Below are positions 1-63,930 of a stretch of 64,000 nt of DNA, in pieces. The notes beneath the pieces were generated by a model that had not been told where the DNA came from, searched no databases, and saw only the letters and a program-made list of their open reading frames with translations. The stretch comes from Apostichopus japonicus (Eukaryota > Echinodermata > Holothuroidea > Aspidochirotida > Stichopodidae). Position numbers and translations under genes: made by a program. Each line of letters opens with the position of its first letter. Position 1 is the stretch's first letter. The stretch covers positions 9,400,501-9,464,500 of the forward strand of contig NC_092571.1 of the NCBI RefSeq assembly GCF_037975245.1. The letters run 5' to 3'.

Positions 1-179
1 TGATCGGTACCGCACATTCGATTGATCGGTACCGCACATTCGATTAATCGGTACCGCACATTCGATAGATCGGTACCGAACATTCGATTGATCAACACCG
101 CACATTCGATTGATCGGTATCGAACATTCGATTGATCGGTACCGCACATTTGATTCATCGGTACCGCACATTCGATTAA

Positions 180-6540: not shown

Positions 6541-8930
6541 GCTACCGAACATTCGATTGATCGGTACCGCACATTGGATTGATCAGTATCGCACTCTCGA
6601 TTAATCGGTACCGCACATATGATTGATCGGTACCGCACATTCGATTGATCGGTACAACACATTCGATTGATCGGTACCGCACATTCGATTGATCGGTACC
6701 GAACATTCGATTGATCGGTAACGCACATTCGATTGATCGGTACCGCACATTCGTTTGATCGGTACCGAACATTCGATTGATCGGTAATGCACATTCGATT
6801 GATCGGTACCGAACATTCGATTGATCGGTACCGCACATTCGATTGATCGGTAACGAACATTCGATTGATCGGTACCGCACATTCGATTGATCGGTAACGA
6901 ACATTCGATTGATCGGTACCGCACATTCGATTGATCGGTACCGAACATTCGATTGATCAATACCGCACATTCGATTGATCGGTACCGCACATTCGATTGA
7001 TCGGTACCGAACATTCGATTGATCGGTACCGCACATTCGATTGATCGGTACCGCACATTCGATTCATCGGTACCGCACATTCGATTGATCGGTACCGCAC
7101 ATTCGATTGATCGGTACCGCACATTCGATTGTTCGGTACCGAACATTCGATTGTTCGGTACCGCACATTCGATTGATCGGTATCGAACATTCGATTGATC
7201 GGTACCGAACATTCGATTGATCTTTACCGCACATTCGATTAATCGGTACCGCACATTCGATTGATCGGTACCGAACATTCGATTGATCAATACCGCACAT
7301 TCGATTGATCGGTACCGCATTCGATTTATCGGTACCGCGCATTCGATTGATCGGTACCGCACATTCGTTTTATCGGTACCGCACATTCAATTAATCGGTA
7401 TCGCACATTCGATTTATCGGTACAGCACATTCGATTGATCGGTACCGCACATTCGATTGATCGGTCCCGCACACTCCATATATCGGTAAAGCACATTCGA
7501 TACATCGGCACCGAACATTCTATTGATCGGTACCGCACATTCTATTTATCGAAACTGCACATTCGTTTTATCGATACGGCACATTCGATTGATCGGTACC
7601 GCACATTCGATTGATCGGTACCGCACATTCGATTGATCGGTACCGCACATTCGACCGTTCGGTACCGCACATTCGATTGATCGGTACCGCACATTCGATT
7701 GATCGGTATCGAACATTCGATTGTTCGGTACCGCACATTCAATTGATCGGTATCGAACATTCGATTGATCGGTACCGCACATTCGACCGTTCGGTACCGC
7801 ACATTCGATTGTTCGGTACCGCACATTCGATTGATCGGTATCGAACATTCGATTGATCGGTACCGCACATGCGATTGATCGGTACCGCACATTCGATTGA
7901 TCGCTACCGAACATTCGATTGATCGGTACCGCACATTGGATTGATCAGTATCGCACTCTCGATTAATCGGTACCGCACATATGATTGATCGGTACCGCAC
8001 ATTCGATTGATCGGTACAACACATTCGATTGATCGGTACCGCACATTCGATTGATCGGTACCGAACATTCGATTGATCGGTAACGCACATTCGATTGATC
8101 GGTACCGCACATTCGTTTGATCGGTACCGAACATTCGATTGATCGGTAATGCACATTCGATTGATCGGTACCGAACATTCGATTGATCGGTACCGCACAT
8201 TCGATTGATCGGTAACGAACATTCGATTGATCGGTACCGCACATTCGATTGATCGGTAACGAACATTCGATTGATCGGTACCGCACATTCGATTGATCGG
8301 TACCGAACATTCGATTGATCAATACCGCACATTCGATTGATCGGTACCGCACATTCGATTGATCGGTACCGAACATTCGATTGATCGGTACCGCACATTC
8401 GATTGATCGGTACCGCACATTCGATTCATCGGTACCGCACATTCGATTGATCGGTACCGCACATTCGATTGATCGGTACCGCACATTCGATTGTTCGGTA
8501 ACGAACATTCGATTGTTCGGTACCGCACATTCGATTGATCGGTATCGAACATTCGATTGATCGGTACCGCACATTCGATTGATCTTTACCGCACATTCGA
8601 TTAATCGGTACCGCACATTCGATTGATCGGTACCGAACATTCGATTGATCAATACCGCACATTCGATTGATCGGTACCGCATTCGATTTATCGGTACCGC
8701 GCATTCGATTGATCGGTACCGCACATTCGTTTTATCGGTACCGCACATTCAATTAATCGGTATCGCACATTCGATTTATCGGTACAGCACATTCGATTGA
8801 TCGGTACCGCACATTCGATTGATCGGTCCCGCACACTCCATATATCGGTAAAGCACATTCGATACATCGGCACCGAACATTCTATTGATCGGTACCGCAC
8901 ATTCTATTTATCGAAACTGCATATTCGTTT
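6180..8930 (+). repeat. Segmental duplication inside satellite, period 1362 bp
   Basis: The block from about 6180 to 7540 repeats at about 7542 to 8930 with an offset of 1362 bp. It includes the unusual units GATCAGTATCGCACTCTCGA, CACACTCCATATATCGGT and TTTATCGAAACTGCA. It also shares its first part with the 1319-bp blocks, so the array has been rearranged more than once. Confidence 0.85.
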
Positions 8931-9785
8931 TATCGATACGGCACATTCGATTGATCGGTACCGCACATTCGATTGATCGGTCCCGCACATTCGATTGAAC
9001 GGTCACGCACATTCGGTTTATCAGTACCGCACATTCGATTTATAGGTACCGCACATTCTATTTATCGGCACCGCACATTCGATTGATTGGCTGGGCACAT
9101 ATACCATTAATCGGTACCGCACATTCGTTTTATCAGTATCGTAAATTCGATTTATCGGTACCGCACATTCGATTGATTGATACCGCACATTCGTTTAATC
9201 GGTACCGCCATTCGATTCATCGATACCGCACATTCCATATATCGGTACCGCACATTCGATTTATCAGTAGCGCACATTCAATTGATCGGTACTGCACATT
9301 TGTTTTATCGGTACAGCACATTCCATTTATCGGTACCGCACATTCCATTTATCGGTACCGCACATTCGATTGATCGGTACCGCCCATTCGCTTTTTCGGT
9401 ACCGCACATTCGATTGAAAGGTACCGCACATTCGATTAATCAAAACGGCATTTTCGATTTATTGGTACCGCTTATTCGATTGATCTGTATCGCACATTTA
9501 ATTTATCGGTAACGCACTTTCGATTTTTCGTTTACTCATATTAGATTTATCGGTACCGCACATTCGATTTATCGGTATCGTACAATCGATTTATCGGTAC
9601 CGCCCATTCGATTTATCGATACGGCACATTCGAATTATCGTTACCCCACATTCGAGTGATCGGTACCGCACATTCGTTTTATCGGCACCGCACATTCCAT
9701 TTAATGGTATTACACATTCTATTTAACGGTACCGCACATTCGATTTATCGGTACCGCACATTCGTTTTATCGGTACCGCACATTC

Positions 9786-10860
9786 CATTGTGCGGTACAT
9801 TCAAATCAAATGTGCAGTACCGTTAAATCGAATGTGCGGTATCGATCAATCGAATGTGCTGTGCCGTTAAATCGTTGTGCGGAACCGTTGCTTCGAATGT
9901 GCTGTACCGATCAATCGAATGTGCGGTACCGATTAATAGAAAGTGCGGTACCGGTAAATAGAATGAGCGGTACCGATCAATAGAATGTGCGGTACCGTTA
10001 AATCGAATGTGTGGTACCGTTTAATAAAATGTGCGGTGCCGTTAAATCGAATGTGCGGAACCGTTGCTTCGAATGTGCGGTACCGATCAATCGAATGTGC
10101 GGTACCGATCAATCAAATGTGCGGTACCGTTACTTCGAATGTGCTGTTCCGATGAATTGCCGCGGTACCGATCGATTGAATGTGCTGTACCGATCGATCG
10201 AAGGTGCGGTACTTATTAATAGAATGTGCGGTACTGTTAAGTCGAATGTTCAGTACCGTTAAATCGAATGTGTGGTACGATTAATCGAATGTGCGTTACC
10301 GATCAATCGAATGTGTGGTACCGATTAATGGAATGTGCGATACCATTAAATCGAATGTGCTGTACATTTAAATCAAATTTGCAGAACTGTTGAATAGAAA
10401 TGCGGTACCAATCAACATAATGTGCTGTACCTGTTAGTAGAATATGCTGTACCGTTAAATCGAATGTGCGGTACCGACTAATCGAATGTGCGGTGCCGTT
10501 AAATCGAATGTGCGGAACCGTTGCTTCGAATTTGCTGTACCGATCAATCGAATATGCGGTACCGATTAATAGAAAGTGCGGTACCGTTAAATAGACTGAG
10601 CGGTGCCGATCAATAGAATGTGGGGTACCGTTAAATCGATTGGCGGTACCGTTAAATAGAATATACGGTATCGATCAATCCAATGTGCGGTACCAATCAA
10701 TATAATGTGCAGTACCGATTAGTAGAATGTGCAGTACCGTTAAATCGAATGTGCGGTACCGATCAATCGAATAAGCGGTACCGTAAATCGAATTGGGCGG
10801 TATACCGTTACATAATTGTGCGGTACATTTAAATCGAATGCGATGTAATAACCGATGCAT
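9786..10860 (-). repeat. Inverted, diverged arm of the 22-bp satellite
   Basis: At about 9785 the units switch to the reverse complement (GAATGTGCGGTACCG with TTAAATC or ATCAATC). The junction reads ACCGCACATTCCATTGTGCG, a near-palindrome. Units here are much more diverged and vary in length, and the array fades out by 10860. This is the expected old edge of a satellite block, but with an orientation flip. Confidence 0.92.
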
Positions 10861-25779: not shown

Positions 25780-28700
25780 ATTATAATTGGGGCATTTCAT
25801 ACTGTAGTTTTGATGCTCATACTGATCACCGAGAATACTTTATATTCACGAAGGATGTGTTAAGACCAGCACCCTGTTAATGTTGTTGGGGTGGGGGGGG
25901 GGTAGATTTCTTATTGTAGTTTTGATGCTCATACTGATCACCGAGAATACTTCATATTCACGAAGGATGTGTTAAGACCACACCCTGTAAATGTTGTTGG
26001 GGATGGGGGGTGGGGGCTGGGCATTTCATACTGTAGTTTTGATGCTCATACTGATCACCGAGAATACTTCATTTTCACGAAGGATGTGTTAAGACCACAC
26101 CCTGTTAATGTTGTTGGGGATGGGGGGGGGGGGGGCTGGGCATTTCATACTGTAGTTTTGATGCTCATACTGATCACCGAGAATACTTCATATTCACGAA
26201 GGATGTGTTAAGACCACACCCTGTTAATGTTGTTGGGGATGGGGGGGGGGCTGGGCATTTCATACTGTAGTTTTGATGCTCATACTGATCACCGAGAATA
26301 CTTCATATTCACGAAGGATGTGTTAAGACCACACCCTGTTAATGTTGTTGGGGATGGGGGGTGGGGGCTGGGCATTTCATACTGTAGTTTTGATGCTCAT
26401 ACTGATCACCGAGAATACTTCATATTCACGAAGGATGTGTTAAGACCACACCCTGTTAATGTTGTTGGGGATGGGGGGGGGGGGGCTGGGCATTTCATAC
26501 TGTAGTTTTGATGCTCATACTGATCACCGAGAATACTTCATATTCACGAAGGATGTGTTAAGACCAGCACCCTGTTAATGTTGTTGGTAATGGGGGTGGG
26601 GGCTGGGCATTTCATACTGTAGTTTTGATGCTCATACTGATCACCGAGAATACTTCATATTCACGAAGGATGTGTTAAGACCACACCCTGTTAATGTTGT
26701 TGGGGATGGGGGGTGGGGGCTGGGCATTTCATACTGTAGTTTTGATGCTCATACTGATCACCGAGAATACTTCATATTCACGAAGGATGTGTTAAGACCA
26801 GCACCCTGTTAATGTTGTTGGTAATGGGGGTGGGGGCTGGGCATTTCATACTGTAGTTTTGATGCTCATACTGATCACCGAGAATACTTCATATTCACGA
26901 AGGATGTGTTAAGACCACACCCTGTTAATGTTGTTGGGGATGGGGGGGGGGCTGGGCATTTCATACTGTAGTTTTGATGCTCATACTGATCACCGAGAAT
27001 ACTTCATATTCACGAAGGATGTGTTAAGACCACACCCTGTTAATGTTGTTGGGGATGGGGGTGGGGGCTGGGCATTTCATACTGTAGTTTTGATGCTCAT
27101 ACTGATCACCGAGAATACTTCATATTCACCAAGGAGGTGTTAAGACCAGCACCCTGTTAATGTTGTTGGGGATGGGGGGGGGGCTGGGCATTTCATACTG
27201 TAGTTTTGATGCTCATACTGATCACCGAGAATACTTCATATTCACGAAGGATGTGTTAAGACCACACCCTGTTAATGTTGTTGGGGATCGGGGGGGGGGG
27301 GGCTGGGCATTTCATACTGTAGTTTTGATGCTCGTACTGATCACCGAGAATACTTCATATTCACCAAGGAGGTGTAAAGACCAGCACCCTGTTAATGTTG
27401 TTGGGGATGGGGGGTGGGGGCTGGGCATTTCATACTGTAGTTTTGATGCTCATACTGATCACCGAGAATACTTCATATTCACGAAGGATGTGTTAAGACC
27501 ACACCCTGTTAATGTTGTTGGGGATGGGGGGGGGGCTGGGCATTTCATACTGTAGTTTTGATGCTCATACTGATCACCGAGAATACTTCATATTCACGAA
27601 GGATGTGTTAAGACCACACCCTGTTAATGTTGTTGGGGATGGGGGGGGGGGGCCGCTGGGCATTTCATACTGTAGTTTTGATGCTCATACTGATCACCGA
27701 GAATACTTCATATTCACGAAGGATGTGTTAAGACCACACCCTGTTAATGTTGTTGGGGATGGGGGGGGGGGGGGCTGGGCATTTCATACTGTAGTTTTGA
27801 TGCTCATACTGATCACCGAGAATACTTCATATTCACCAAGGAGGTGTTAAGACCAGCACCCTGTTAATGTTGTTGGGGATGGGGGGTGGGGGCTGGGCAT
27901 TTCATACTGTAGTTTTGATGCTCATACTGATCACCGAGAATACTTCATATTCACGAAGGATGTGTTAAGACCACACCCTGTTAATGTTGTTGGGGATGGG
28001 GGGTGGGGGCTGGGCATTTCATACTGTAGTTTTGATGCTCATACTGATCACCGAGAATACTTCATTTTCACGAAGGATGTGTTAAGACCACACCCTGTTA
28101 ATGTTGTTGGGGATGGGGGGGGGGGGCTGGGCATTTCATACTGTAGTTTTGATGCTCATACTGATCACCGAGAATACTTCATATTCACCAAGGAGGTGTA
28201 AAGACCAGCACCCTGTTAATGTTGTTGGGGATGGGGGGGGGGCTGGGCATTTCATACTGTAGTTTTGATGCTCATACTGATCACCGAGAATACTTCATAT
28301 TCACGAAGGATGTGTTAAGACCACACCCTGTTAATGTTGTTGGGGATGGGGGGGGGGGGCTGGGCATTTCATACTGTAGTTTTGATGCTCATACTGATCA
28401 CCGAGAATACTTCATATTCACGAAGGATGTGTTAAGACCACACCCTGTTAATGTTGTTGGGGATGGGGGGTGGGGGCTGGGCATTTCATACTGTAGTTTT
28501 GATGCTCATACTGATCACCGAGAATACTTCATATTCACGAAGGATGTGTTAAGACCACACCCTGTTAATGTTGTTGGGGATGGGGGGTGGGGGCTGGGCA
28601 TTTCATACTGTAGTTTTGATGCTCATACTGATCACCGAGAATACTTCATATTCACGAAGGATGTGTTAAGACCAGCACCCTGTTAATGTTGTTGGGGATC

Positions 28701-30215
28701 GGGGGGGGGGCTGGGCATTTCATACTGTAGTTTTGATGCTCGTACTGATCACCGAGAATACTTCATATTCACCAAGGAGGTGTAAAGACCAGCACCCTGT
28801 TAATGTTGTTGGGGATGGGGGGTGGGGGCTGTGCATTTCATACTGTAGTTTTGATGCTCATACTGATCACCGAGAATACTTCATATTCACGAAGGATGTG
28901 TTAAGACCAGCACCCTGTTAATGTTGTTGGTAATGGGGGTGGGGGCTGGGCATTTCATACTGTAGTTTTGATGCTCATACTGATCACCGAGAATACTTCA
29001 TATTCACGAAGGATGTGTTAAGACCACACCCTGTTAATGTTGTTGGGGATGGGGGGGGGGGCTGGGCATTTCATACTGTAGTTTTGATGCTCATACTGAT
29101 CACCGAGAATACTTCATATTCACGAAGGATGTGTTAAGACCACACCCTGTTAATGTTGTTGGGGATGGGGGTGGGGGCTGGGCATTTCATACTGTAGTTT
29201 TGATGCTCATACTGATCACCGAGAATACTTCATATTCACGAAGGATGTGTTAAGACCACACCCTGTTAATGTTGTTGGGGATCGGGGGGGGGGGGGCTGG
29301 GCATTTCATACTGTAGTTTTGATGCTCGTACTGATCACCGAGAATACTTCATATTCACCAAGGAGGTGTAAAGACCAGCACCCTGTTAATGTTGTTGGGG
29401 ATGGGGGGTGGGGGCTGGGCATTTCATACTGTAGTTTTGATGCTCATACTGATCACCGAGAATACTTCATATTCACGAAGGATGTGTTAAGACCACACCC
29501 TGTTAATGTTGTTGGGGATGGGGGGGGGGGGGCTGGGCATTTCATACTGTAGTTTTGATGCTCATACTGATCACCGAGAATACTTCATATTCACGAAGGA
29601 TGTGTTAAGACCACACCCTGTTAATGTTGTTGGGGATGGGGGGGGGGCCGCTGGGCATTTCATACTGTAGTTTTGATGCTCATACTGATCACCGAGAATA
29701 CTTCATATTCACGAAGGATGTGTTAAGACCACACCCTGTTAATGTTGTTGGGGATGGGGGGGGGGGGCTGGGCATTTCATACTGTAGTTTTGATGCTCAT
29801 ACTGATCACCGAGAATACTTCATATTCACCAAGGAGGTGTTAAGACCAGCACCCTGTTAATGTTGTTGGGGATGGGGGGTGGGGGCTGGGCATTTCATAC
29901 TGTAGTTTTGATGCTCATACTGATCACCGAGAATACTTCATATTCACCAAGGAGGTGTAAAGACCAGCACCCTGTTAATGTTGTTGGGGATGGGGGGTGG
30001 GGGCTGGGCATTTCATACTGTAGTTTTGATGCTCATACTGATCACCGAGAATACTTCATATTCACCAAGGAGGTGTAAAGACCAGCACCCTGTTAATGTT
30101 GTTGGGGATGGGGGGTGGGGGCTGGGCATTTCATACTGTAGTTTTGATGCTCATACTGATCACCGAGAATACTTCATATTCACGAAGGAGGTGTTAAGAC
30201 CAGCACCTTGTAAAT
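25780..30215 (+). repeat. Tandem array of about 38 G-rich units, about 117 bp each
   Basis: Each unit contains GGGCATTTCATACTGTAG, TTTTGATGCTCATACTGATC, ACCGAGAATACTTCATATTC, ACGAAGGATGTGTTAAGACC, then CCTGTTAATGTTGTTGGGGA followed by a G run of about 5-14. I count about 38 copies of CTGATCACCGAG, mean spacing about 117 bp. Two main variants alternate (ACGAAGGATGTGTTAAGACCACACC and ACCAAGGAGGTGTAAAGACCAGCACC; also GGGGATCGGGG). Their order shows blocks copied as groups, for example around 27240-27560 and 29200-29560. The G-run length varies from unit to unit. The repeated reading frame (ISYCSFDAHTDHREYF) shifts with G-run length and is not a gene. Confidence 0.96.
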
Positions 30216-30708
30216 GTTGTACATGTTGTAGATTTCAGAAGAATTTTTTTTAAAGGTAAAAGTACACGATACGTTATGAGGCATCACCTCAAGATCTTTA
30301 GAGACCTTAAGTAACATTAAATTGATATGATTGAGTCAGATTAAAACACAGCACAATGAGTAGTACATCTCTCGTATCCCCGTACGCCTGACAATATTTA
30401 TGGTAAAAGTACAATGTTTGACATACTAATTTGATTTCTTTCTGGGGAGGTCCACAAGATCCCCCCTCCCTCCTCACAAGGGAGTCGCTTAGGCGACCCC
30501 TCTACCACACCCTTACAGCGCATCCCTAAACGTGCATCCCCTTATGTAGTTGGGGGGGGGATGACTTGAACTTCTCACCCCTCCCCCTGTTGTTGTCGAG
30601 AGCTGTGACGTCAAAAATACCGCTGGTTTTCGTTCTATATGAACGTCGTTTTGTTAGCTTAATACAAGTTTTTTGTAGAGTTATGAGAAAGTCATTGCAA
30701 GAGCAACA
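30216..30708. other. Spacer between arrays
   Basis: No gene or repeat recognised beyond short C-rich and G-rich runs (about 30460-30480 and 30552-30560). Confidence 0.35.
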
Positions 30709-50700: not shown

Positions 50701-51013
50701 TGTATATATATATATAAATGAAAATCGTAATGAGTTGGAAAATCAAGAACAGTGAAAAAACTTTCAGCCTCCACCGGGATTCGAACCACGGGCCTCCCGC
50801 TCTGTACTCGGACACCCTAACCACTGGGACAACAGTATTTGAATATCAGCCAAAACTTAACAACATTAATCCAAGCGGGCAGTTTAAACCTGAATGTAAG
50901 CAATCTTCAATGTTTTGTTCGTTTTTGTTTGTTCTACTGCAGGAGAAGCTTTGAATATTCATGAACTTCTGGAACGCATCAATCGTGGAGAAGGGTCGAC
51001 CGTATCTAAATAG
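47736..51013 (+). CDS. POLG: POLG 3' end: exons 47736-47852, 50508-50625, 50943-51013
   Basis: C-terminal part of the catalytic subunit of DNA polymerase gamma, which replicates and repairs mitochondrial DNA in the matrix. Exon 1 (39 codons, after TTTCGCAG) begins [18 protein letters not shown] and ends [12 protein letters not shown] before GTATAT. Exon 2 (after ATCGTAG) continues [17 protein letters not shown] ... [16 protein letters not shown] up to AAAAG|GTATCC. Exon 3 (after CTGCAG) reads [18 protein letters not shown] and ends SK-stop. Phases join perfectly (0, then 1). The order matches the end of animal POLG (DRYRAALALQ, FAYKLGLNDLPQ, AFFSAVDID, TPSNP, GEALDIYQ). The polymerase motif C residues HDE directly precede VRYL and must be in the exon before, which I could not find in this window, nor any earlier exon. 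The gene is thus partial here: either it has long introns and small missed exons, or its 5' part is displaced. Intron 1 holds a dead hAT transposase and intron 2 a tRNA-derived SINE. Confidence 0.9.
48396..48722 (+). pseudogene. hAT transposase C-terminal (dimerisation) fragment
   Basis: Frame of 108 codons containing [36 protein letters not shown] and a C-terminal RRGIFGRF. This is the hATC dimerisation region (typical pattern S-x-ERxFSxLrriKtxlRstMxxeRL) of the ZMYM1-like hAT transposases. The N-terminal zinc finger and the DDE/RNase H part are not seen upstream, so it is a fragment. It lies in POLG intron 1 in the same orientation. It shows that full-length hAT elements, possible drivers of the MITEs here, existed in this genome. 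Confidence 0.8.
48943..48977. repeat. Perfect 17-bp palindrome with 1-bp centre
   Basis: GAGTGCGACAGTCGGAA, one T, then the exact reverse complement. It sits just inside a GGGACGTCTCTAGAGGGGGG element end at about 48871. Confidence 0.95.
49186..49525 (+). mobile_element. Partial copy of the GGCGTAGGAGCC element
   Basis: Begins CATAGGCGTAGGAGCCAATT and ACGACTTGCCCGAAAAA like the element at 13708-14134, and shares TTTCTTTCAGTAGGTGCCCG. The right terminus is missing or diverged (GGTTGGGGTGGGGGGCTAAT). No target duplication seen. Confidence 0.65.
50208..50330 (-). repeat. Dispersed GCGCCA-hairpin repeat copy
   Basis: The minus strand reads TATCTAAGCGGAGCGCCACC, ATCGGTTGGCGCGCAGCGTA, CCAAGAAAATTTCAG and GATCGCTGGAGATGGCACTT. 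It lies in POLG intron 1. Confidence 0.75.
50634..50716 (+). repeat. (TA)n microsatellite
   Basis: Interrupted TATA/TACATA/TCTA repeat directly after the splice donor of POLG exon 2. Confidence 0.9.
50763..50832 (-). repeat. tRNA-derived SINE head in POLG intron 2
   Basis: The minus strand reads GTTGTCCCAGTGGTTAGGGT, GTCCGAGTACAGAGCGGGAG, then GGTTCGAATCCCGGTGGAGG. It has an A-box-like TGGTTAGGGTG and a perfect B-box GGTTCGAATCC with a pairing T stem, as in tRNA-derived SINEs. The anticodon stem is not clean, so this is not a functional tRNA. The SINE body would lie towards lower coordinates, where a TA microsatellite follows. Confidence 0.65.
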
Positions 51014-51371
51014 ATTGCACAGCCTAAAGTATAGGTGTAAAGTAGCAACCTATATTGAAATAGCAAATTTCCAGGTTGATTGTCCGCAACACTGGTATAT
51101 AGATACTAGCCGTATACCAAACCATCGGTGGATGAAATGTGTTTGTAAACTTAAAACAGAAATATTGTCAAACAGTTTTCAGGGAAGATGCAAGCCTTTT
51201 GCATTGTGCCTTAGACATTTAACAAACTCTTCAGTGATTGTGGATTTCAGAGAACAAATGCCGAATGTAGAGGACATACGACTGTTCTAAAGCCAAAATA
51301 CCAACTACCCTGGCAGCAAGTTTGTTCCACCAGCTATATTTGTTTCAATGCGCTCTGCAATTCACGGTTGG
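51014..51371. other. Convergent 3' UTR region of POLG and the FASTKD gene
   Basis: Only about 358 bases separate the two stop codons. No AATAAA was seen on the + strand here, so the two transcripts may overlap at their 3' ends. Confidence 0.5.
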
Positions 51372-54300
51372 CTAGTAAATCAAGGAGGACAACAATTCGG
51401 CATTTGAATACACTCGTTTGTCTGTGACGTTCCCGTTGCGAAACACATTCCATCCGACCAGTACGTTATCTTCTGTGATTTGCTCCATTTGTGATACACT
51501 AAATTTTAATGCAACTCTTTTCAAAGAGAACTGAACAGTTTCTTTTTCAAGTAATTTCCTAGCAGCTGGGCCGTGTCTTCCAACAAGCTCCCAGTCGTGA
51601 TAAGGAATCTGGAAAAATGATACGACGATCATGTTAGCACACTTGGACAGTTGTGCGAAATATGTTTAACGTCTTCACTGGACACAAGATACTGAAACAA
51701 CTTCAATGGAAGGGCTGCATTGTTAACAGCTGAGACTGTTCATGTGAAAACAGACGGTCTTGTGTGACTACTGCACTAAAGAAACAGAGGTTATAACTGA
51801 TGGCACTGTTAATGTGTCCATAAAATATATTTGTGTAAACATGTTGATACTACGCCTGCCAGTATCATGAATTGATAGTTAATTTTAATGACATAAAATA
51901 CATATATTTCTCAGGTCTGAAATTAGTGCAGGTGCCTATTATACCTAGAACTTTCATACCACAGTATGTATGGAAACAGAAAGTATTCATAAAGGAAGAA
52001 GCCTTCTTTGAAATGTATTTGTACTCGTCGTTTGTAATATCTTTTCTCTAATTTTCATGCAATACTTCGCTGCACAGCTTTGTGTTACACATTAATCTAT
52101 TGATTAATACTAGTCTATATTATATTATGCAATTACCGATGCAGTTTATTAGATTAGCTAGTCAGATTATCTTCAAATTGGTAAAGGAAAGTTTTGCATG
52201 TTTTTTTTTTATTTTTGAAAACTTTTAAAATTTATTTACATTTGCTTATTCCATGTTAATTTTCATAGTGATATGAAAAAGTGGCCTGCATGACACATTT
52301 TTTTTGGGGAATGAATAAGATTCCTTAATTTTTCACCCATTGATGTTCTTTGGCATGTACCAACCATAGCAGTTAGATTTCACTGTAAGGATATAAATCC
52401 TTCACGAATTGCTTTTCAATTAATATACAACTCTGAATACATCCTTTACAAAGAACAACATTACGTAAGAATATTTCCTAGTGAGGAAATTGATAAAAAT
52501 ACATAAGAGACACTTAAAGCAGGGTTATTGCACTTGTCAAATATGATCAGGCCACTCCCTAAGGACTGCACATATTGATCACAGGTTGTGTACTGGCCAC
52601 AATTGAGAAAGGGTAAAGTGATACAAAGTTCCTACTTGACTTTACAGATATCTTTGTAATAGTCAAAGAGTTTTAAGTTTTAAAAACCAATACCATAAAA
52701 CAGGATACGCTATGTAGACAATATTTAACATTTTCAGTTTAGTGAATTTTTGTTTTTTAACTTGAAACCTTTACAGCAATCACAGAGGAAAAAGATACGG
52801 TTTACCATTTAGTCAGCGGGCAGCAACTATATCCTTAAAGGAAAATGTATATCCTTTAGAAAATTTGCATGTTTTTTTTTTACTTGTTGCCAAAAATGAT
52901 AACCGATATCACTTACGTTGATAACATGGTAACCTAATTCAGCTAGATGTCGTCTCTTCATACTGTGAAGACCTAACAACTTATTGCCTCCGAAGTGATG
53001 GTGGTTTCTCGAAGACACTTGTATCGCAATCCTGGGTAAGAATTGAATGGAAAGACATGATCCCAAATACTACACAATTTAAACTGATCATTTATAAGTG
53101 TGGTTATGGTCTTGGGTAGGACAAAGTATGACAACAGAAGGACATAAAATGATTCGTAATCATTAAATCGTTGTCATTTGATTTTAATACAAAATGCTCG
53201 ATACATTTTGAAAATTGCTGACACATAAAAGATTTAACCTGTTTACTACCAGCTAAACTCATACACTAACCATTATGTAAGCAACTTGAACTGATGTGTC
53301 AAACACAAAATGGATGCTAACACTGTATCATATAGGAATTGCTAAGTAGTAATTATTAGTCTAACAAAGTAGTAATTATGAAAATACAGTGGAAAACTTC
53401 ACTGATTTTCATTTGGAGTACCGACTTCTGCAATTTGAAGATCTGGCATCTCCAATTTGGAGAACCGGCTTCTCCAATTTGGAGATTCGGCATCTCCAAT
53501 TTGATGATCCGTTTTCTCCTATTTGAAGATCAGGCTTCTCCAATTTGAAGATCCGGCTTCCCAATTTGAAGATCTGGCTTCTCCAATTAGAGGATCCAGC
53601 TTCTCCAATTTGAGGATCTGGCTTCTCCAATTTGAAGATCCGGCTTCTCCAATTTGGAGGTCCGGCTTCTCCAATTTGAAGATCCTGCTTCTCCAGTAAG
53701 AGGATCCGGCTCCTCCAATTTGAAGATCCGGCTTCTCCAATTAGAGGATCCGGCTTCTCAAATCTGAAGATCCGGCTTCTTCAATTAGAGGATCCGGCTT
53801 CTCCAATTTGAAGATCCGGCTTCTCCAATTTGGAGGTCCGGCTTCTCCAATTTGGAGATTCGGCATCTCCAATTTGATGATCCGTTTTCTCCTATTTGAA
53901 GATCAGGCTTCTCCAATTTGAAGATCCGGCTTCCCAATTTGAAGATCTGGCTTCTCCAATTAGAGGATCCAGCTTCTCCAATTTGAGGATCTGGCTTCTC
54001 CAATTTGAAGATCCGGCTTCTCCAATTTGGAGGTCCGGCTTCTCCAATTTGAAGATCCTGCTTCTCCAGTAAGAGGATCCGGCTCCTCCAATTTGAAGAT
54101 CCGGCTTCTCCAATTAGAGGATCCGGCTTCTCAAATCTGAAGATCCGGCTTCTTCAATTAGAGGATCCGGCTTCTCCAATTTGAAGATCCGGCTTCTCCA
54201 ATTTGGAGGTCCGGCTTCTCCAATTTGAAGATCCGGCTTCTCCAGTAAGAGGATCCGGCTCCTCCAATTTGAAGATCCGGCTCCTCCAATTTGAAGATCC

Positions 54301-55363
54301 GGCTTCTCCAATTAGAGGATCCGGCTTCTCAAATCTGAAGATCCGGCTTCTTCAATTAGAGGATCCGGCTTCTCCAATTTGAAGATCCGGCTCCTCCAAT
54401 TTGAAGATCCGGCTTCCCAATTTGAAGATCCGGCTTCTCCAATTAGAGGATCCGGCTTCTCAAATTTGAAGATCCGGCTTCTTCAATTAGAGGATCCGGC
54501 TTCTCCAATTTGAGGATCTGGCTTCTCCAATTTGAAGATCCCGCTTCTCCAATTTGGAGGTCCGGCTCCTCCAATTTGAAGATCCGGCTTCTCCAGTAAG
54601 AGGATCTGGCTCCTCCAATTTGAAGATCCGGCTCCTCCAATTTGAAGATCCGGCTTCCCAATTTGAAGATCCGGCTTCTCCAATTAGAGGATCCGGCTTC
54701 TCAAATTTGAAGATCCGGCTTCTTCAATTAGAGGATCCGGCTTCTCCAATTTGAAGATCCGGCTCCTCCAATTTGAAGATCCGGCTTCCCAATTTGAAGA
54801 TCCGGCTTCTCCAATTAGAGGATCCGGCTTCTCAAATTTGAAGATCCGGCTTCTTCAATTAGAGGATCCGGCTTCTCCAATTTGAAGATCCAGCTTCTCC
54901 TATTTGGAGAGCCGGCTCCTCCAATTTGGAGAGCCGGCTCCTCCAATCTGAAGATCCGGCTTCCCAATTTGAAGATCCGGCTTCTTCAATTAGAGGATCC
55001 GGCTTCTCCAATTTGAGGATCCGGCTTCTCCAATTTGAAGATCCGGCTTCTCCAATTAGAGGATCCGGCTTCTCCAATTTGAGGATCCGGCTTCTCCAAT
55101 TTGAAGATCCCGCTTCCGAACCTGAAGATCAGGTTTCTCCAATTTGAGAGACAATTTTTCATTAGTAATAGTCCTTCAACAGCTCTGATCTAACATTGAG
55201 ATTAACATTTTCATCAACTTCACATTTTGTTCTACTTTCATCTTGAAGGTCACCTTCAAAATATATTTTCCACAAATGGGGAGGAGAATCACTAAACCAA
55301 GATTCCTCCACCCACAGGCTGCTTCAGCTTGTCCTCCTTTTTCTCTCAAATAAAAAATGCAAC

Positions 55364-55420
<57 letters not shown>

Positions 55421-58400
55421 CCTACACTTGTATCAAAATATAATATGAAACACAATACCATCTCTGATTGGCTGATACAGGTAATGGCTGAGGAAGTTGG
55501 ACTTGCTTAAGTCTCCTCTCTTATGGATTGTCAATGCTGCCTTCCTTTTCTTCTGTTGTTCTTAAGGTTCTATCTCTACTATGAAAGATGTTATCATGAC
55601 CTTTCTTATGACCAAGGTGAGTTGCACTTGTGACAGATTTAAGTCAAGTTAAATGTGAAATGATGTCATCGTTGAGAGGTATACTGCTGCTAGAGTTATC
55701 ATCCCGTTCGGTTGCTGGTGATGTACTTCCATTTATTGGTAGGGGTGTATTGGTGTCATCCAAGGAAATTCAATGTCTGGAGGAAGGAAGAAATTATGAG
55801 AGAGAGTAAAAAAATGGAAAAATAACCGAAATGTAGATAACAGGATTTATTCAGAAGAACAATTAAGAACAGGTCTGGTTATAAACACAAAACTTACTAG
55901 GTAGGGGTGTATTGGTGTCATCCAAGCAAATTTCAATGTCTGGAGGAAGGAAGAAAATATGAGAGAGAGGGGTGTATTGGTGTCATCCAAGGAAATTCAA
56001 TGTCTGGAGGAAGGAAGAAATTATGAGAGGGAGAGTAAAAAATGGAAAAATAACCAAAATGAAGATAACAGAATTTATATGGAAGAAAAATTAAGAACAG
56101 GTCTGGTTATAAACACCGAACTTACTAGGTAGGGGTGAATTGGTGTCATCCAAGCAAATTTCAATGTCTGGAGGAAGGAAGAAAATATGAGAGAGAGAGT
56201 AAAAAATGGAAAAATAACCAAAATGAAGATAACAAAATTTATATGGAAGAACAATTAAGAACAGGTCTGGTTATAAACACCAAACTTACTAGGTAGGGGT
56301 GAATTGGTGTCATCCAAGCAAATTTCAATGTCTGGAGGAAGGAAGAAAATATGAGAGAGAGAGTAAAAAATGGAAAAATAACCAAAATGAAGATAACAGA
56401 ATTTATATGGAAGAACAATTAAGAACAGGTCTGGTTATAAACACCGAACTTACTAGGTAGGGGTGAATTGGTGTCATCCAAGCAAATTTCAATGTCTGGA
56501 GGAAGGAAGAAAATATGAGAGAGAGAGTAAAAAATGGAAAAATAACCAAAATGAAGATAACAGAATTTATATGGAAGAACAATTAAGAACAGGTCTGGTT
56601 ATCAACACCAAACTTACTAGGTAGGGGTGAATTGGTGTCATCCAAGCAAATTTCAATGTCTGGTGTAAGGAAGAAAATATGAGAGAGAGGTGGAGAGAGA
56701 GAGTAAAAAATGGAAAAATAACCAAAATGAAGATAACAAAATTTATTTGGAAGAACAATTAAGAACAGGTCTGGTTATAAACACCAAACTTACTTGCCTG
56801 AGTACCTTTGTGTCATAATGGGTAAAGCTCTGGGTTTTATATCTCAGGTACTACTATACTTAATTCAAACCCTGAGGGAATGTTTGAACTTTTCTCTGGA
56901 CTCTGAAATTCCATCTCCGACAAAAAATTAAAAATTTTCTCTGACCTATGCAACCCACAATGGATCTAGGGTCATTGTATTGTGATAATGCTCATGTTTG
57001 AAAGCCAGTGAACATTACTTCTCTGCCACTAACCCCTGTGGATGGAAAAAAAACCCTAAAGAAATCACAAGGTCCATACCTGCTGTTCTCATGTAAGGCA
57101 AGATGAAGTGTACTCTGCAGTACTTGCTTCCTCCAACGATAGATTTGACGCAGTCTGCAACCTCTCGTAACTCAGACCTTTGCTTTAGTTCCTCTCTGAT
57201 GTCACCTAGCATTTGATGAGGGAATGGTTTGGATGTCAAATATTCCTGTGGATTTAAAAAAGATAGATAAGAGATTGTAATGCAAAATCTTTCTTCAAAC
57301 ACCTTCATGTTTTTGGGTTTTGAAAACAAAACAAAACATGGTCTAGTAAATATTTTAAATGTTCAACTGGTAAATTATCCACTACATCAGATGGTAATGC
57401 TGGTGACACTGAAGCCCAGGACAGCTTAAAATTTTCCCAAAATTTGGAAAAGAGACTTATCAGACCTGGAAAAATTCATGAAACCTTTAAATAAGTTGAA
57501 ATTTGATTGAGCCCTGTTCAAAAATCTATGTAAATCTACACAATTTAACCTTCAGTCAAAATGAAGTTCACCAGATGTCTGCCTTTTTTCTGGGGACTGT
57601 CCTCGGACCTCATGGACCGTCTCTGGATTAAAAGTGTACATGGAATAGTCTCCGGATTAAAAGTGTACATGGAATACTGTAGTCTCCAGATTTAAAGTGT
57701 ACATGGAATAGTCTCCAGATTTAAAGTGTACATGGAATAGTCTCCGGATTTAAAGTGTACATGGAATAGTCTCCGGATTTAAAGTGTACATGGAATAGTC
57801 TCCAGATTTAAAGTGTACATGGAATAGTCTCCAGATTTAAAGTGTACATGGAATAGTCTCCGGATTTAAAGTGTACATGGAATAGTCTCCGGATTAAAAG
57901 TGTACATGGAATACTGTAGTCTCCAGATTTAAAGTGTACATGGAATAGTCTCCAGATTTAAAGTGTACATGGAATACTGTAGTCTCCAGATTTAAAGTGT
58001 ACATGGAATAGTCTCCGGATTTAAAGTGTACATGGAATAGTCTACGGATTTCATGTACTGTCACCGATCATTCCCAAATTTATTGAAAGGTCCAGAATAA
58101 AGTAAATTTGAAGAAACAAATGAACATAGTCTCTAGAGAATGTATGATAGAAACTTTGCACCTTCATTCTTGATATATATCACCACCAGACATTGAGATC
58201 TCAAAATCGCACACATTCCTTGATGTCAACATGGTGGGAGGGTTAGGGGGGACCATAATGGACATATTTATCATAATGTTTTCATCAAAGTACCATAAGT
58301 CAGTACGCAACTATAGTTACATCAATTGGAACATACGTTGCACATTTCCCTAGGAAAACTGTAAAACAATTCCAAGAGAGACCTACAGTATTACTAGCAA

Positions 58401-60533
58401 GATACAAACATTCTATCAAATCTGGAGACAAAATGTTGTAGAAAAAAACCCAAGCTAAGAATGAATATATATATATACTTTTAAATTTTCCATTAATTGC
58501 TTTCTACTGTATCTATCTACTTGTACTGCACTGATTCCAAAACAGACAGTTTGTGTACTAGTAGTCAATAAGCAAAGAATATAAACTGGGTTATTTTTTA
58601 TGAAAAAGGTATGAACAGTAAAACTAACATGGAAATGTAAGGTTCCTGTATTAATAAAGAATAACAATTTTTTATACCAAAACTTCCTTGTCCTGTTAAA
58701 AGCCCTAATCAATTTAAGACAACAGGTGAAAGACAGATTCAAGACAATGTCAGAGAAATAAATCGAAAAGATTTTGATTTCACTTACTAAGTTCAATCTT
58801 TGTTCTAGTTTCACTGGACTCTCTAAAGAAGCAGCAGCATGAAGCGTGAAGAGATTACTCCTAAGATCTACTCCTTCTCTCTCTTCGTAGTCTGAAAAAA
58901 GAAAAAACGATACCCACAAGAATAGCTCCTTTTTCAAAGAATTTTACTCCCAAAAGATTTCCACACAATGTTAATTTATAGAACTTGGTAAAAGTTTCGG
59001 GGAAATCATGACAAACGACACTGTCAAAATTAAATTTTTGACTGATCGGTCCCATTCTAAGTCGCTTGCCATTGAGATAAATTGTGTTGTATTACAAACT
59101 GTGGCAATTCCAACTATCAGTAACTCCATAACAGTACCCCAGTAACTTAAAATGTAACTTTCACCCTGATACTTGGAACATATTCCACAATTCGCCAGTC
59201 CAAATTTTACCACTGAACTATCTTTTTGAAATTAAACCCCTCCAAACAATTACAGGAGCCAATACGAACCTTTGATATGCTGTAAGAAACCGTCACTGAA
59301 GACCTTCTTCAAGAGGTCACTGGGATAGACATTTATGTAAGCCAACGAGAGTAGAAAAGAAATAAAATAGATGGGAAATGTCGCCATCTCCTCTCCTAAT
59401 TCTTCCACCCTTGCTTGCAGAACATCGACAACCAGCTTCCAATCAGTGGGTTCGTAATTCAATGTCACAAACGACCAGATGATCTTGGCTACATCCTTAC
59501 TGCGACACTGTTCGATCTTCTGTAGGACTTCTCTAGAGGCAACGTCCATCAGATCCTTGTGGAAATTATGGAGTGTGGCAAAAATTACCACAAATTGCAT
59601 GATTGACTTGATGGGGTATCTGTGAGCTTCCTTAGCTATCTGGTCACCAAGTCTTTCAAACAGGCTGCTGTATCCATAGTAGTTATGACAAAACACTTTC
59701 AGAATACCGACGATGTGATAGCTGGGATGTCTCCAGAGGTCAGATGCAAACAAGACATCCCTCAACAAATTCATGAAGTCGAGAGAACTGTGGTTGTAGT
59801 TTGATTTGTAGAAAGCTGTACAAACAGTTGCGATTTCGACAAAGGAGAGGTCCTTATCTCGTAATACTGTCACAGCCCTGGATTCCAAATCTGACATCAA
59901 TCTCCTTGGAACACCTCAACTTTCAGCAGCTGTTTCAACTGCCAGTCACTACTTCTGATCACACTTTCTTGACTAAACACATTTGCACATTCTTTGAAAT
60001 ACTTGGATACCATCAAAAACTTGATTTTGTATCTCAATGCAGCTAGATGAAACAGGAATTATTCAAATTCTTGTTGCGGTAACCTGGCGCAAGAATCCGA
60101 CATGGTCAACAACGACGACAAGAAGTACTTAAACTTAGAACAGGCAATACTCTTGCAAATGCTTCCTTTGAAGACTTAACAAGGATTGGAAGAACTCAGT
60201 TAATGCAACTGCTGGTATCCTCCCAACAAGACAGCTATCATTCAATCGACTTAAAATGGTGAGCGTACTATCCTTCTTAGAAGTTGGCGTTAACAGCAAA
60301 ACGGCTACATCAGCATAACTGGGGCTTCCAAGTTGAAATAACCGTGGAGTTCCTATTGTGTGGAACCTTTCAAACTGCATTGGCGATGAATATTTATCCA
60401 AATATTCACTACCATTTAGTAAGCCTTCCAGCTGTACCTTAGAACTATAGAATCGCGATTCTTTGGCTGGAATTGGTGAATATTCCCAAGTTAGGATCTT
60501 GCAGCTGCTTGTATATGGTGTTGAGAAACGCAT
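51372..60533 (-). CDS. FAST-kinase-domain (FASTKD) family gene; clear exons 51372-51608, 52917-53031, 57080-57245, 58788-58891, 59270-about 59900
   Basis: FASTKD proteins bind RNA in mitochondria and act in mitochondrial mRNA processing and stability. 5' to 3' on the minus strand: 59900-59270 encodes helical repeats (KDVAKIIWSFVTLNYEP) and the start of FAST_1 (LLSLAYINVYPSDLLKKVF), ending AAAG|GTTCGT. 58891-58788 (DYEEREGVDLRSNLF) follows in phase and ends before GTAAGT. 57245-57080 (EYLTSKPFPHQML ... HFILPYMRTA) ends GCAG|GTATGG. Next comes the 42-bp DIEICLDDTNSPLP exon, present in several copies (55734-56800). 53031-52917 begins the RAP domain (KLLGLHSMKRRHLAELGYHV). 51608-51372 finishes it (IPYHDWELVGRHG) and adds a tail of about 60 residues to the stop. 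A linker exon between the 42-bp exon (exit phase 1) and the RAP exon (entry phase 2) was not found. Upstream, ATG 60533 opens a frame with a possible mitochondrial presequence (...RFYSSK) to 60135, but frames then shift at about 60.1 and 59.9 kb. The 5' part is therefore provisional. Paralogue not assigned. Confidence 0.83.
53408..55143 (-). repeat. Second 22-bp satellite, intronic
   Basis: About 79 copies of a 22-bp unit; 20 of its bases are GGCTTCTCCAATTTGAAGAT, followed by CC. The variants are AATTAGAGGATCC and CAGTAAGAGGATCC, and CCGGCTCC or CCGGCTTCC with a 2-base loss. It has no sequence similarity to the array at 1-10860 but the same period. A block near 53.4-53.77 kb is repeated at 53.78-54.14 kb with an offset of about 373 bp. 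It lies in the FASTKD intron upstream of the RAP exon. The 22-residue open frames (KPDLQIGEAGSSNWRSR) are a by-product of the period. Confidence 0.95.
55144..55733. other. FASTKD intron, with one open stretch
   Basis: The minus strand at about 55326-55174 has a 50-codon acidic frame (SLWVEESWFSDSPPHLWK ... VNLNVRSELLKDYY-stop) that could be a fossil or terminal exon, but its splice phase does not fit the neighbouring exons. A (TA)n microsatellite is at 55371-55416. Confidence 0.3.
55734..56800 (-). repeat. Tandem 164-bp repeat carrying seven copies of a 42-bp FASTKD exon
   Basis: Exon copies on the minus strand start at 56659, 56495, 56331, 56167, 56003, 55939 and 55776. Copies starting at 56659, 56495, 56331, 56167 and 55939 are each exactly 42 bp from ..CAG| to |GTAAGT (ends 56618, 56454, 56290, 56126, 55898). 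The first four of these encode DIEICLDDTNSPLP and the fifth DIEICLDDTNTPLP. Copies at 56003 and 55776 share a 1-base loss (TTGAATTT for TTGAAATTT) and lack the donor, so they are dead. Unit spacing is 164 bp, except that the 56003 copy is a 64-bp-offset partial insertion. The peptide is the FAST_2 motif (D-x-E-x-x-LD-x(3-4)-PLP) expected after YMRTA of the preceding exon. Entry and exit phases are both 1. Confidence 0.88.
56801..57079. other. FASTKD intron sequence
   Basis: No coding frame with matching phase. This is the region between the exon at 57245-57080 and the repeated mini-exons. Confidence 0.4.
57600..58052 (+). repeat. 29-bp tandem array, intronic
   Basis: About 15 copies of TGGAATAGTCTCCGGATTTA followed by AAGTGTACA. 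The variants are CCAGA, CCGGATTAA and a 5-base-longer ATACTGTAGTCTCC. It lies in the FASTKD intron between exons 58788-58891 and 57080-57245. Confidence 0.95.
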
Positions 60534-61187
60534 GGTTCTCCAACAAACTGTCAGCCTAGTACAAATTCTCCTGTTCATCATCACCCTGCAGGAGAGACCT
60601 CTTGAAAGACTCCTCAAGGACCACCCAGAGACTTCTAAAAGCTTTGTCTTGGACATAACTGTCATTTAATGGGACTGTAGGGTACCCACAGTAGTGTACA
60701 GGAAAGTATGTTGCTACTGTACAAGTACATGCTGAGGGAATGTGTGAGGTGGGGGTGGGGGGTTGGGATGAAAGAAAAAAGAATATTAGAGGCTGAAACC
60801 TTGATATGTCATAGTCCAAGGAAAAAATGAAAATTGCATCCTAGTTAATTCATTTACAGTTTTTCCTGTTTCAAGATTAAAATCTCTGGACTGCTCAGGA
60901 CAATAAGTGTAACAGGCTTCAGCCTTTGAAGCTACATATTTTACATTCAAACTTGTGTTGCTAGGCTTAGGCCTAACACTAGTATATACTGCATATATTG
61001 CTATGTTAAGTTAGCTTGCACATATTTATTGTTCTGGTTCCTGCAGATGAATGTTCATTTCTACTATTCTGGGCTGGTTGTAACTGTACAATAAGGGGAT
61101 TCAATGCGATGTGATTTTTTTAGTTTTTACTTAAATCAAAAGAATACTTGAGGACTTGCACTGGTGACCGACATATTTTGGGCATAT
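60534..61187. other. 5' flank of the FASTKD gene, coding-like but disrupted
   Basis: The minus strand in another frame reads LNDSYVQDKAFRSLWVVLEE, SFKRSLLQGDDEQENLY, a TAG, then ADSLLENHAFLNTIYKQLQD at about 60667-60480. It looks coding in composition but has an internal stop and overlaps the provisional 5' exon in a different frame. Either the 5' part has indels or this is an older copy. Nothing recognised from 60830 to 61187. Confidence 0.35.
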
Positions 61188-61193
61188 CAATTA

Positions 61194-62549
61194 CAGACCT
61201 GTCAACCTGTTTGACCCCAAAATAGGGAGAATAACATTTTTCAGGGCCCAAAAAACGGGAGAATATGGGGAAAATAGGGAGGTTGGTAATTTTCAACTGA
61301 AATTATATAAATACTCCTAAATAAATACAGTAGTCTACAGTACCGCTCATGTATAACTGGACATGTGTATGCGCACAGGATCGTATAAAGACATATAAAC
61401 AAGAACAATCGCGTATAAATATTCGTTGACAAACAAATTGTCGTGTAGACACCTTGTATAATCCCTGTACGAGTTTATACGCAGGTTATGCTATTGTGCT
61501 CAATGAATAGGGTTTTAAGTCGCCGAAAGAATTAGTGAGATGTTTGAAACAGCTGTTTCTTAAATTGTAGTTTAAGACGTGATATTCACCTAGCATCGAA
61601 GAGGACGCAGGTAAAGTGTGTGCCAGCATAGAACTTAACTGTTTTTTGTCGTATACAAGTAGCCTACATGCGAACTGCACACATTCGGTACGCCGCATAT
61701 ACAAACAAGTGACAACTTGTGTTTATTAAACTTGTGCACCATGGCATATGCACAGTGCACGCCGTACGACTGTACTGTATTCAGGACTCGACCAAGGCCA
61801 ACGTACAATAACGACATTGGGCGAAGTCTGAGAACTGACAAAGCAGCCTGATATTGGTTGAGAGTCCCGCACGCGAATTTCTTTTTCCTGAACCTTTCGG
61901 GCAGTGTACGTTGAGTTTAGCCAATCAGAGCGAGGCTGTGTTGATGACGTACTACAGTAAGATGGCGGCGTGCTTACCAAATGTTGAAGTGGGGAAATCA
62001 CATTCGATAAGTCAACATAATTGTTGTACTACAGCAGAAAGTATTAATGTATATAAGCCTTTTCAATTCATGATATAATACTTGGACGTAACTACTTGGA
62101 CATGAGAAAAAGTGGCGGAAAAAATCCACACGGGGCCTCGAACTCACGGTCTTTCGTTTCCCACCTTATGTTTTGAAGCGACGCATTTACCCGACTGACC
62201 ATCTTTACTGAGTAGTACGTCATCAACACGAGCGAGGCTGTGTACGTCATCATCACAGCCTCGCTCTGATTGGCTAAACTCCACGTACACTGCCCGAAAG
62301 GTTCAGGAAAAGAAAATTCGCGTCCCGCACAGCACTGTGTCAGTCGTAACGTGTTTATAAACAGTCAATCTATTTTTAGATTACACTTATTACGCGATAG
62401 GCATAGGACTAACTGTTGGCTGTTTTCAGAAATTTCGCAAGTGATGAAACATTAAAAAACCGGGAGAATAGAATATGAAACCGAGAGGCCGGGAGATTCG
62501 GGTAAAAACCGGGAGTCTCCCGGTAAAACCGGGAGAGTTGACAGGTCTG
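61194..62549. mobile_element. Non-autonomous DNA transposon, CAGACCTGTCAA ends
   Basis: TIRs are CAGACCTGTCAA and TTGACAGGTCTG. Sub-terminal CCGGGAG repeats lie at the right end and AACGGGAGAATA-type sequence at the left. The flanking direct repeat CAATTA is at 61188-61193 and 62550-62555. Inside are two long inverted arms (about 61864-61954 and 62216-62331) with CCAATCAGAGCGAGGCTGTG and its complement. Between them is a tRNA-like segment. No transposase frame. The 6-bp duplication does not match hAT; the superfamily is not assigned. Confidence 0.8.
62133..62205 (-). repeat. tRNA-like segment inside the CAGACCTGTCAA element
   Basis: The minus strand reads ATGGTCAGTCGGGTAAATGC, GTCGCTTCAAAACATAAGGT, then GTGAGTTCGAGGCCCCGTGT. 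It has A-box-like GGTCAGTCGGG and B-box-like GAGTTCGAGGC at tRNA spacing. Probably a captured tRNA-derived SINE head. Confidence 0.5.
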
Positions 62550-62555
62550 CAATTA

Positions 62556-63275
62556 GCATTTGAATATATACAATTATGTATACTGGATGGTCAGGTTATT
62601 TTAAGTTTGTATTGGGAACAAGTTTAGTATTAGTTAATATTGGTAATCTTCTCTCACCAGACAGCAGTGCATGTCTAGTGCAAATGATAGGAAAATAAAA
62701 CGTTTGTCTCCGTGTCTAAGAAGTTTACTTTGACTCCATGTAATCTATGTAAGTAATTTACACGAAAATAAAACGTTTCAAACGTCTTTTTTATTACTCA
62801 AAGTCATACCATGCGAACATTTTGAACCACGGCAGCGACACATCATACCATGCGTGCAGCGGAATTGGTAGAACATTATACGGGAAAGTTACAGAAACTG
62901 GAAAATTAAAAATACCGTAATCCCCATACCACTGATTGACCGAAGGCTAGGTGCTAGGTTCTACACAGACATTATGCTTTAAGTTACATTCGGCCCTATT
63001 CCGCGAAGTTCGTGCAAGGTACAGTACATAGCATTCATAGAAATGCATATAACTTTTTTGAAATGTAAAACTGCGTAATCAATACTTATTTACTATCATT
63101 AGGCCTATCCTTTTGTAATTGATCTTGTTTATTTACCGTAGTATTACATTTCGTGGAAACCTCTGAGCAATATGTACAGTATGGTGCTCTGCGACAAAAT
63201 TATGGTCGTTAGCTAGTGAAGTGATATGGCTTTGATATAGACTGAGTAGACTGACATGCATATAACTACATTCAT
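62556..63275. other. Non-coding region
   Basis: No gene or repeat recognised. Confidence 0.35.
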
Positions 63276-63930
63276 CAACGAGGTAAATGAATCTGGAGGA
63301 TTCATGTCAATTGGGTGCGCGCGTACCATGTATGGAGGGTCATGTGATGTGTTCCAGGGTGGTACTATACTGATATTTCTCTGTAGCAGTTCGAGAACAG
63401 TGTTAGTGACTTCGTGAAAGATTGGTCGGTTCGGACATGGGAAATAACGGCATAAGAAGGTACTGGTACTTCAGGCCTACGAAATAGTGCTAATATGCTA
63501 ACGTTCAACCTTATTCTCTTGAATGAAGGCAGGCTTTCTACATAATCTTACTTATTAATACAGCTCTAGGGCACGCTTTGTCTCATATGGCCTAACGTTT
63601 TAATACACGCTATAAGTTAATGTAGAAATGGGAAATGTTTAGTTCAGTGCAACCACGGAATTCTCCATGGAACAGAGCCTAATGCTGCTCGACGGGAATA
63701 TAGCTATCACGTTAGGCTACAGGCACGGTTATTGCTAGGTAACGGGTGTCGTCTGCTGCTCTAAGCACGCAAACACATTTACGTACTAGTTGGGTGAAAT
63801 AATCATGCGTAATAGGGAGAGTAGTATATTAGTACCACCCTGGAACACATCACATGACCCTCCATACATGGTACGCGCGTACGCCCGTATTTACTGTGTG
63901 ATAGTTTCTCCAGATTCATTTACCTCGTTG
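63276..63930 (-). mobile_element. Long-TIR hAT-like element, copy B, exact 8-bp TSD
   Basis: The ends are CAACGAGGTAAATGAATC and GATTCATTTACCTCGTTG. The direct repeat ACATTCAT is at 63268-63275 and 63931-63938. The inverted arms hold ACCATGTATGGAGGGTCATG. It is 655 bp and is the inverted counterpart of copy A at 16431-17108, with the same interior (GGCCTACGAAATAGTGCTAA, CACGGAATTCTCCATGG). No transposase. Confidence 0.9.

Follow-up and report, generated by a model that had tools for sequence, protein, structure and literature searches.

Within a gene of the sea cucumber Apostichopus japonicus, a short exon encoding part of the FAST_2 domain is present in a head-to-tail array of copies, several of them flanked by splice sites. 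Does this array adjust the length of a mitochondrial RNA-binding protein by splicing, as the initial annotation of the sequence suggested, or did it grow in a gene that was already decaying? We addressed this question in a stretch of 64,000 nucleotides, denoted here the window (C11:9400501-9464500), comparing it with a genome assembly of 671.6 Mb in 35 contigs. All features of the gene lie on the minus strand (Table 1).

Pfam matches to FAST_1 (8.9e-12 on the open frame 59250-59915) and to RAP support membership of the host gene in the FASTKD family, in agreement with the initial annotation. When the central and C-terminal exons were joined into one query and searched against the protein database, two proteins were matched, P0001 with 100% identity and P0002 with 57%. 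P0001 is the NCBI entry "FAST kinase domain-containing protein 5, mitochondrial-like isoform X5 [Apostichopus japonicus]" and P0002 is FASTKD5 of Holothuria leucospilota. The nearest annotated relatives are FASTKD5 in both database matches, an assignment made by name. Searching solved structures gave only weak matches (RESC6, E 0.0005; FASTKD4, E 0.33), and a literature search combining FASTKD5 with echinoderm found no paper, a result that speaks for that search and not for the wider literature. FASTK proteins are described as having FAST_1, FAST_2 and RAP in common, RAP resembling PD-(D/E)XK nucleases (PMC8601606). FASTKD5 is reported to be a mitochondrial endoribonuclease acting at non-canonical junctions, whose knockout is embryonic lethal in the mouse (PMC12687428). 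In a protein lacking RAP, this junction endoribonuclease activity would presumably be missing.

To describe the array we combined Tandem Repeats Finder, which reported a 164-bp array with a score of 1448, with a repeat search of the window, which found seven copies of a 33-nt core. The seven FAST_2 exon cores are denoted E1-E7 and start at the higher of the two coordinates given for each in Table 1. The initial annotation had counted seven copies of a 164-bp unit; the number of copies stands, whereas the unit size is not uniform, measuring 176, 164, 164, 164, 163, 65 and 162 nt when each unit is taken to begin at a donor and to close with the exon that follows. Five of the seven copies (E1-E4 and E6) are flanked by a CAG acceptor and a GTAAGT donor, each copy being 42 bp long with entry and exit phase 1. 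E1-E4 are the same over all 42 bp and E6 is one base off, while E5 and E7 carry a 1-nt deletion within the exon core and are both without the GTAAGT donor. These results agree with the initial description of the five spliceable copies, of their length and phase and of the four identical exons, and the change of the leading D to N in the extra copies was also correctly predicted. Scored with rough weights, the mini-exons have acceptors of 6.7-10.0 and donors of 3.4, and the gene's other acceptors and donors score 4.4-10.2 and 0.7-4.6, respectively. We considered the identity of the four exons as a sign of selection and set it aside: the introns of units U2-U4 are nearly as alike, with a pairwise difference of only 2/122, and four identical 42-bp exons are therefore unsurprising.

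Table 1. Features of the FASTKD5-like gene and its exon array, in the direction of transcription (window positions).
Feature	Position	Strand	Remarks
Decayed N-terminal half	59898..60665	-	Alignment with the intact C13 gene
Exon B (FAST_1), from the ATG of P0001 to the donor; what is left of the long first exon	59270..59897	-	P0001 start
Exon C, exit phase 0	58788..58891	-	
Exon E, most of FAST_2, exit phase 1	57080..57245	-	
E1 mini-exon, 42 bp	56618..56659	-	Acceptor and GTAAGT donor
E2 mini-exon, 42 bp, identical	56454..56495	-	
E3 mini-exon, 42 bp, identical	56290..56331	-	
E4 mini-exon, 42 bp, identical	56126..56167	-	
E5, 41-type core, truncated, without donor	55963..56003	-	
E6 mini-exon, 42 bp, DIEICLDDTNTPLP	55898..55939	-	
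E7, copy at the ancestral position, 1-nt deletion; (D/N)IEFPWMTPIHPYQ then TAA at 55735	55733..55776	-	
Decayed linker, remainder of the 319-nt ancestral exon	55459..55732	-	Matches the H. leucospilota linker and the intact C13 exon
22-bp satellite, ~79 copies, intron ahead of RAP	53421..55147	-	
RAP exon, entry phase 2 required	52917..53031	-	Pfam RAP 5.7e-8
Last exon; end of RAP replaced through a 2-nt deletion at 51557	51372..51608	-	

We then followed the reading frame through chains of copies. The exit phase 1 of exon E is kept by each 42-bp copy, and the RAP exon at 53031 reads IAIQVSSRNHHHFGG, the frame of the RAP domain match, only when it is entered in phase 2. Because of this requirement the tested chains of zero to five copies shift the frame: joining 0, 1, 2, 3 or 4 copies of E4, or E1-E4 together with E6, to the RAP exon leads to a stop after 19 residues. 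The proposal that any number of copies from none to five would leave the frame unbroken thus failed for the tested chains to RAP. The frame is kept only when the chain ends in E7, and the protein then terminates at the TAA at 55735, before RAP. All 32 subsets of E1-E4 and E6, when followed by E7, are open and encode 10 distinct proteins of 313-383 aa. Mutually exclusive use of the copies, one of the initial suggestions, is not needed for the frame, since all five copies plus E7 stay open.

P0001 is an exact match to 4 of the 32 window chains, those in which any three of E1-E4 precede E6 and E7, and ends inside E7, ahead of RAP. Copy-to-copy joins, which had been predicted, therefore exist in the public gene model, that is, in an annotation rather than in RNA reads. 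At the same level of annotation and not of reads, the four copies plus E7 of P0001 speak against the use of one copy per transcript. The P0001 cluster holds 30 member sequences. P0001 itself is placed on a contig with a length of 28,441,223, compared with 28,432,063 for C11, and may come from another assembly; the one mini-exon that it lacks relative to the window may have been skipped in splicing or be missing there. NCBI builds alternative gene models from read evidence.

An exon of phase 1 to 2 hidden between the mini-exons and RAP was considered as a candidate. We scanned the AG/GT pairs in 56700-53060 for open exons of 12-600 bp, with entry after a mini-exon only (junction base A), and scored them with the same rough weights; for the best candidate the weaker site scored -0.2, compared with 3.4 for the mini-exon donors, and the candidate was rejected. 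A separate RAP gene was likewise not supported, with no match among 14 database candidates of 67-213 aa (none at E <= 1). Among the 7996 candidates of 238-756 aa sharing most words, no database protein with the window RAP was found.

The array query also matched C13:13642989-13643177 in the genome. The stretch around this match (L008) aligns with window positions 50825-63276 at ~86-92% in the main blocks and has one exon copy. It encodes an intact FASTKD5 frame of 771 aa in exons of 1522, 104, 166, 319 and 115 nt plus a last one, with boundaries inferred from splice sites and frame, and by its sequence the C13 gene is intact. The encoded protein has FAST_1, FAST_2 and a complete RAP (all model positions 1-58 matched) in one open frame, whereas in the window gene RAP is out of frame from the tested chains. 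In C13 the exon core occurs once, as the first 42 bp of the 319-nt exon, and the same exon also encodes a linker, DDTNTPLPINGS...ANQRW, and leaves in phase 2. A related linker is present in the H. leucospilota protein P0002, and its remains follow E7 in the window, with the 1-nt deletion and two in-frame stops and then a donor-like ATG|GTATTG. The 771-aa protein was not found in the protein database, where a search with P0002 among candidates of 405-1288 aa returned only P0002 itself. We also observed that the public P0002 protein ends after the linker, without a precomputed RAP, although in C13 this linker is followed by RAP exons; the P0002 gene model is probably truncated.

The two A. japonicus genes also differ in their satellites. 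The 22-bp satellite in the intron between linker and RAP is short in the C13 gene, ~270 bp (L008 5743-6011), and has therefore grown or shrunk since the split. Between exons C and E the window carries 14 copies of a 29-bp tandem repeat (57619-58051) that is missing or very short in C13 (about L008 4100-4150). Elsewhere in the window, positions 1-10840 are occupied by a 22-bp satellite, TGATCGGTACCGCACATTCGAT, in ~445 copies, with a related diverged array from 9.8 kb.

Alignment with C13 demonstrated eight disabling lesions in the window gene. Four lie in the N-terminal half: a 2-nt deletion at 60149, a change of TGC to TAA near 60058, a 133-nt deletion at 59919 and a change of CGA to TGA at the edge of that deletion, so that the half in which any targeting signal would reside is not intact. 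Of the other four, E7 contributes its 1-nt deletion, the linker two stops (GGA to TGA and GAA to TAA) and the last exon its 2-nt deletion. An in-frame insertion of 9 nt at 60116 comes in addition to the eight. The introns outside the array are kept, with 6.1-9.7% mismatch to C13 (11.9 and 13.2% for the U1 and U7 introns); the exons show 0.9-4.7% mismatch, 84/2178 in all, and the RAP exon 1/115. Introns that are more diverged than exons are as expected if only one of the two copies was constrained.

To learn on which side the changes had accumulated, we used H. leucospilota as referee. The 51 amino-acid differences comprise 18 on the window side, 6 on the C13 side and 27 that could not be assigned (binomial P 0.023); leaving out the three stops among the 18 gives counts of 15 and 6 (P 0.078). 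In the central frame, codons 300-597, 6 assigned changes are on the window side and 1 on the C13 side (P 0.125). With stop codons left out, dN/dS between the window gene and C13 is 0.43 overall and 0.21 in exon B (14 synonymous and 12 non-synonymous changes); for the other parts it is 0.68 (N-terminal half), 0.34 (exons C and E), 0.96 (linker) and 0.55 (RAP exons). The N-terminal half and linker together have 30 non-synonymous and 11 synonymous changes, against 17 and 18 in exons B, C and E (Fisher P 0.035, with the RAP exons, 2 and 1, left out of the comparison). The low value of exon B speaks against a gene dead from birth, and fits either a gene that died at some point after the duplication or a remnant protein that is still partly constrained.

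A second locus on the same contig, at C11:6.17-6.21 Mb and 3.25 Mb from the window gene, is 99.0-99.8% identical to window positions 25790-63238 apart from the arrays, with one block at 98.7%. All eight lesion marker strings (8/8) are present in both C11 loci, indicating that the decay predates the duplication of the locus. The second array also has seven units, of which the first and the last match those of the window at an edit distance of 1. The array nevertheless differs between the two locus copies within one assembly: at the second locus the AG of unit 2 is shifted by one base and unit 5 is a 41-nt form with a donor, and relative to that locus the window has lost 99 bp around the E5-E6 junction. 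In the upstream coding exons the loci differ at 4/898 nt, one of these being G168R; P0001 has G at 168 and is therefore of the window type. The near-identical segmental duplicates span window 25790-64000 and C11:6174336-6221108, ~37 kb of them within the window and extending beyond it. The 117-bp satellite at 25790-30220 is longer at the second locus, and beyond the window end the similarity continues in rearranged, tandemly reshuffled pieces.

Taking the C13 copy as the parent, the window gene is a DNA-level, intron-bearing duplicate of FASTKD5. Upstream of the exon, the introns of C13 and the window have the sequence ACTCAGGCAAGTAA(A)GTTTGGTGTTTATAACC in common, and each intact array exon copy runs ...CCCCTACC, followed by TAGTAAGTTTGGTG or close variants. 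Comparison with C13 suggests a tandem duplication with one breakpoint ~40 bp into the exon and a second one in the intron, at AGTAAG. Each new copy would thereby have received the original acceptor on one side and, on the other, an intronic GTAAGT able to serve directly as donor. Unequal exchange or conversion may then have spread the copies, including the 1-nt-deleted form. Growth of the array in tandem, as the initial annotation proposed, is thus supported. The 1-nt deletion is common to E5, E7 and the matching units of the second array, suggesting that the defective form was involved when the array was amplified or converted; the deletion would accordingly predate array growth or have spread during it. 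If the gene is transcribed, the mini-exons would be spliced in cumulatively, 0 to 5 times, as the one annotated protein suggests, and the frame predicts a protein ending in E7 without linker or RAP.

Together these data make it very probable that the array sits in a decayed FASTKD5 duplicate, where changes in its length are most likely without function. The identity of P0001 with a chain ending in E7 is in line with this reading. Several observations weigh against it. The gene is annotated by NCBI as coding and as isoform X5, which means that several isoforms were modelled and suggests transcription. The dN/dS values of exon B and of the whole gene are lower than expected for a copy that evolved neutrally from birth, and exons B, C and E differ in their non-synonymous share from the N-terminal half and linker. 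The intact C13 protein, for its part, did not turn up among the database candidates of 405-1288 aa. Finally, the disabling lesions all lie outside the 299-codon central frame, although a lesion-free run of ~300/771 codons would arise by chance with P of about 0.17 given eight lesions.

The same observations bear on the possibility that a functional FAST_1/FAST_2 protein without RAP is made from the C11 gene, with splicing varying the 14-residue units of its tail; we consider this unlikely. Such a protein would agree with the annotation of P0001 as an isoform ending in E7, with the open state of every E7-closed chain and with the constraint on exon B, but the N-terminal half is lost, a TGA stands directly upstream of MSDLE in its frame, the central-frame changes lean to the window copy (6 vs 1), and at the second locus one unit has a shifted acceptor and another is 41 nt long. 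That the FASTKD5 duplicate has become a new RAP-less gene, its cassette giving up to five repeats of the 14-residue FAST_2 motif in a variable tail closed by E7, is in our estimate quite improbable. If it were true, the length of the tail would vary among transcripts and, through the copy number of the array, among loci and individuals. Peptides of NIEICLDDTNSPLPNIEICLDD in proteomes would favour the new gene, and their absence would favour a pseudogene.

An expansion of the array by the assembly is very unlikely: near-identical 164-bp units are easily mis-assembled and one assembly was read, but arrays of seven units are present at both loci, 3.25 Mb from each other, each array with changes of its own and with outer units that correspond, and P0001, perhaps from another assembly, needs four mini-exons plus E7. 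The insertion of 0-5 copies into a full mitochondrial FASTKD protein that continues to RAP, as first proposed, is hardly credible, for although the RAP exon is still open with a single mismatch in 115, the tested chains enter it in the wrong phase, no good intermediate exon restores the frame, and neither the 7996 longer nor the 14 shorter database candidates include a protein with the window RAP.

Isoforms of an RNA-binding mitochondrial protein, as claimed at the outset, are thus unlikely, the gene being a decayed duplicate in which no tested open chain reaches RAP. The decayed duplicate most likely shows a dying gene gaining splice-ready exons, rather than a switch of protein length. It offers a before-and-after view of exon birth, with a single exon in the intact copy and the array in two sister loci. 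Duplication of part of an exon, capturing an intronic donor, would yield a symmetric, splice-ready mini-exon in one step, and unequal exchange would supply more. The case also calls for caution, as gene models with many isoforms can stem from exon arrays in decayed duplicates.

Among known systems, the window gene resembles unprocessed (duplicated) pseudogenes: introns are kept, at 6.1-9.7% mismatch, disabling lesions number eight, and an intact copy is present elsewhere, on C13. It differs from that class in being annotated as coding. Compared with FASTKD5 (PMC8601606, PMC12687428), the window gene descends from a gene of this type and has FAST_1, FAST_2 and remains of RAP, but the open frame no longer includes the N-terminal half or RAP. 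The window array also resembles a known class, tandem exon duplication with alternative splicing (PMC9013439), in that exon copies follow one another head to tail in a single gene; five of the seven copies here have splice sites. It differs in that the copied piece is restricted to the first 42 bp of an exon of 319 nt, the donor comes from an intron and the host is a decayed duplicate, and whereas the emphasis there is on a mutually exclusive pattern, inclusion in the window would be cumulative. Schistosome micro-exon genes likewise have very small symmetrical exons with alternative splicing (PMC4350168). Their micro-exons form most of the coding region, whereas the mini-exons of the window are near-identical copies of one piece of a conserved domain in a truncated duplicate.
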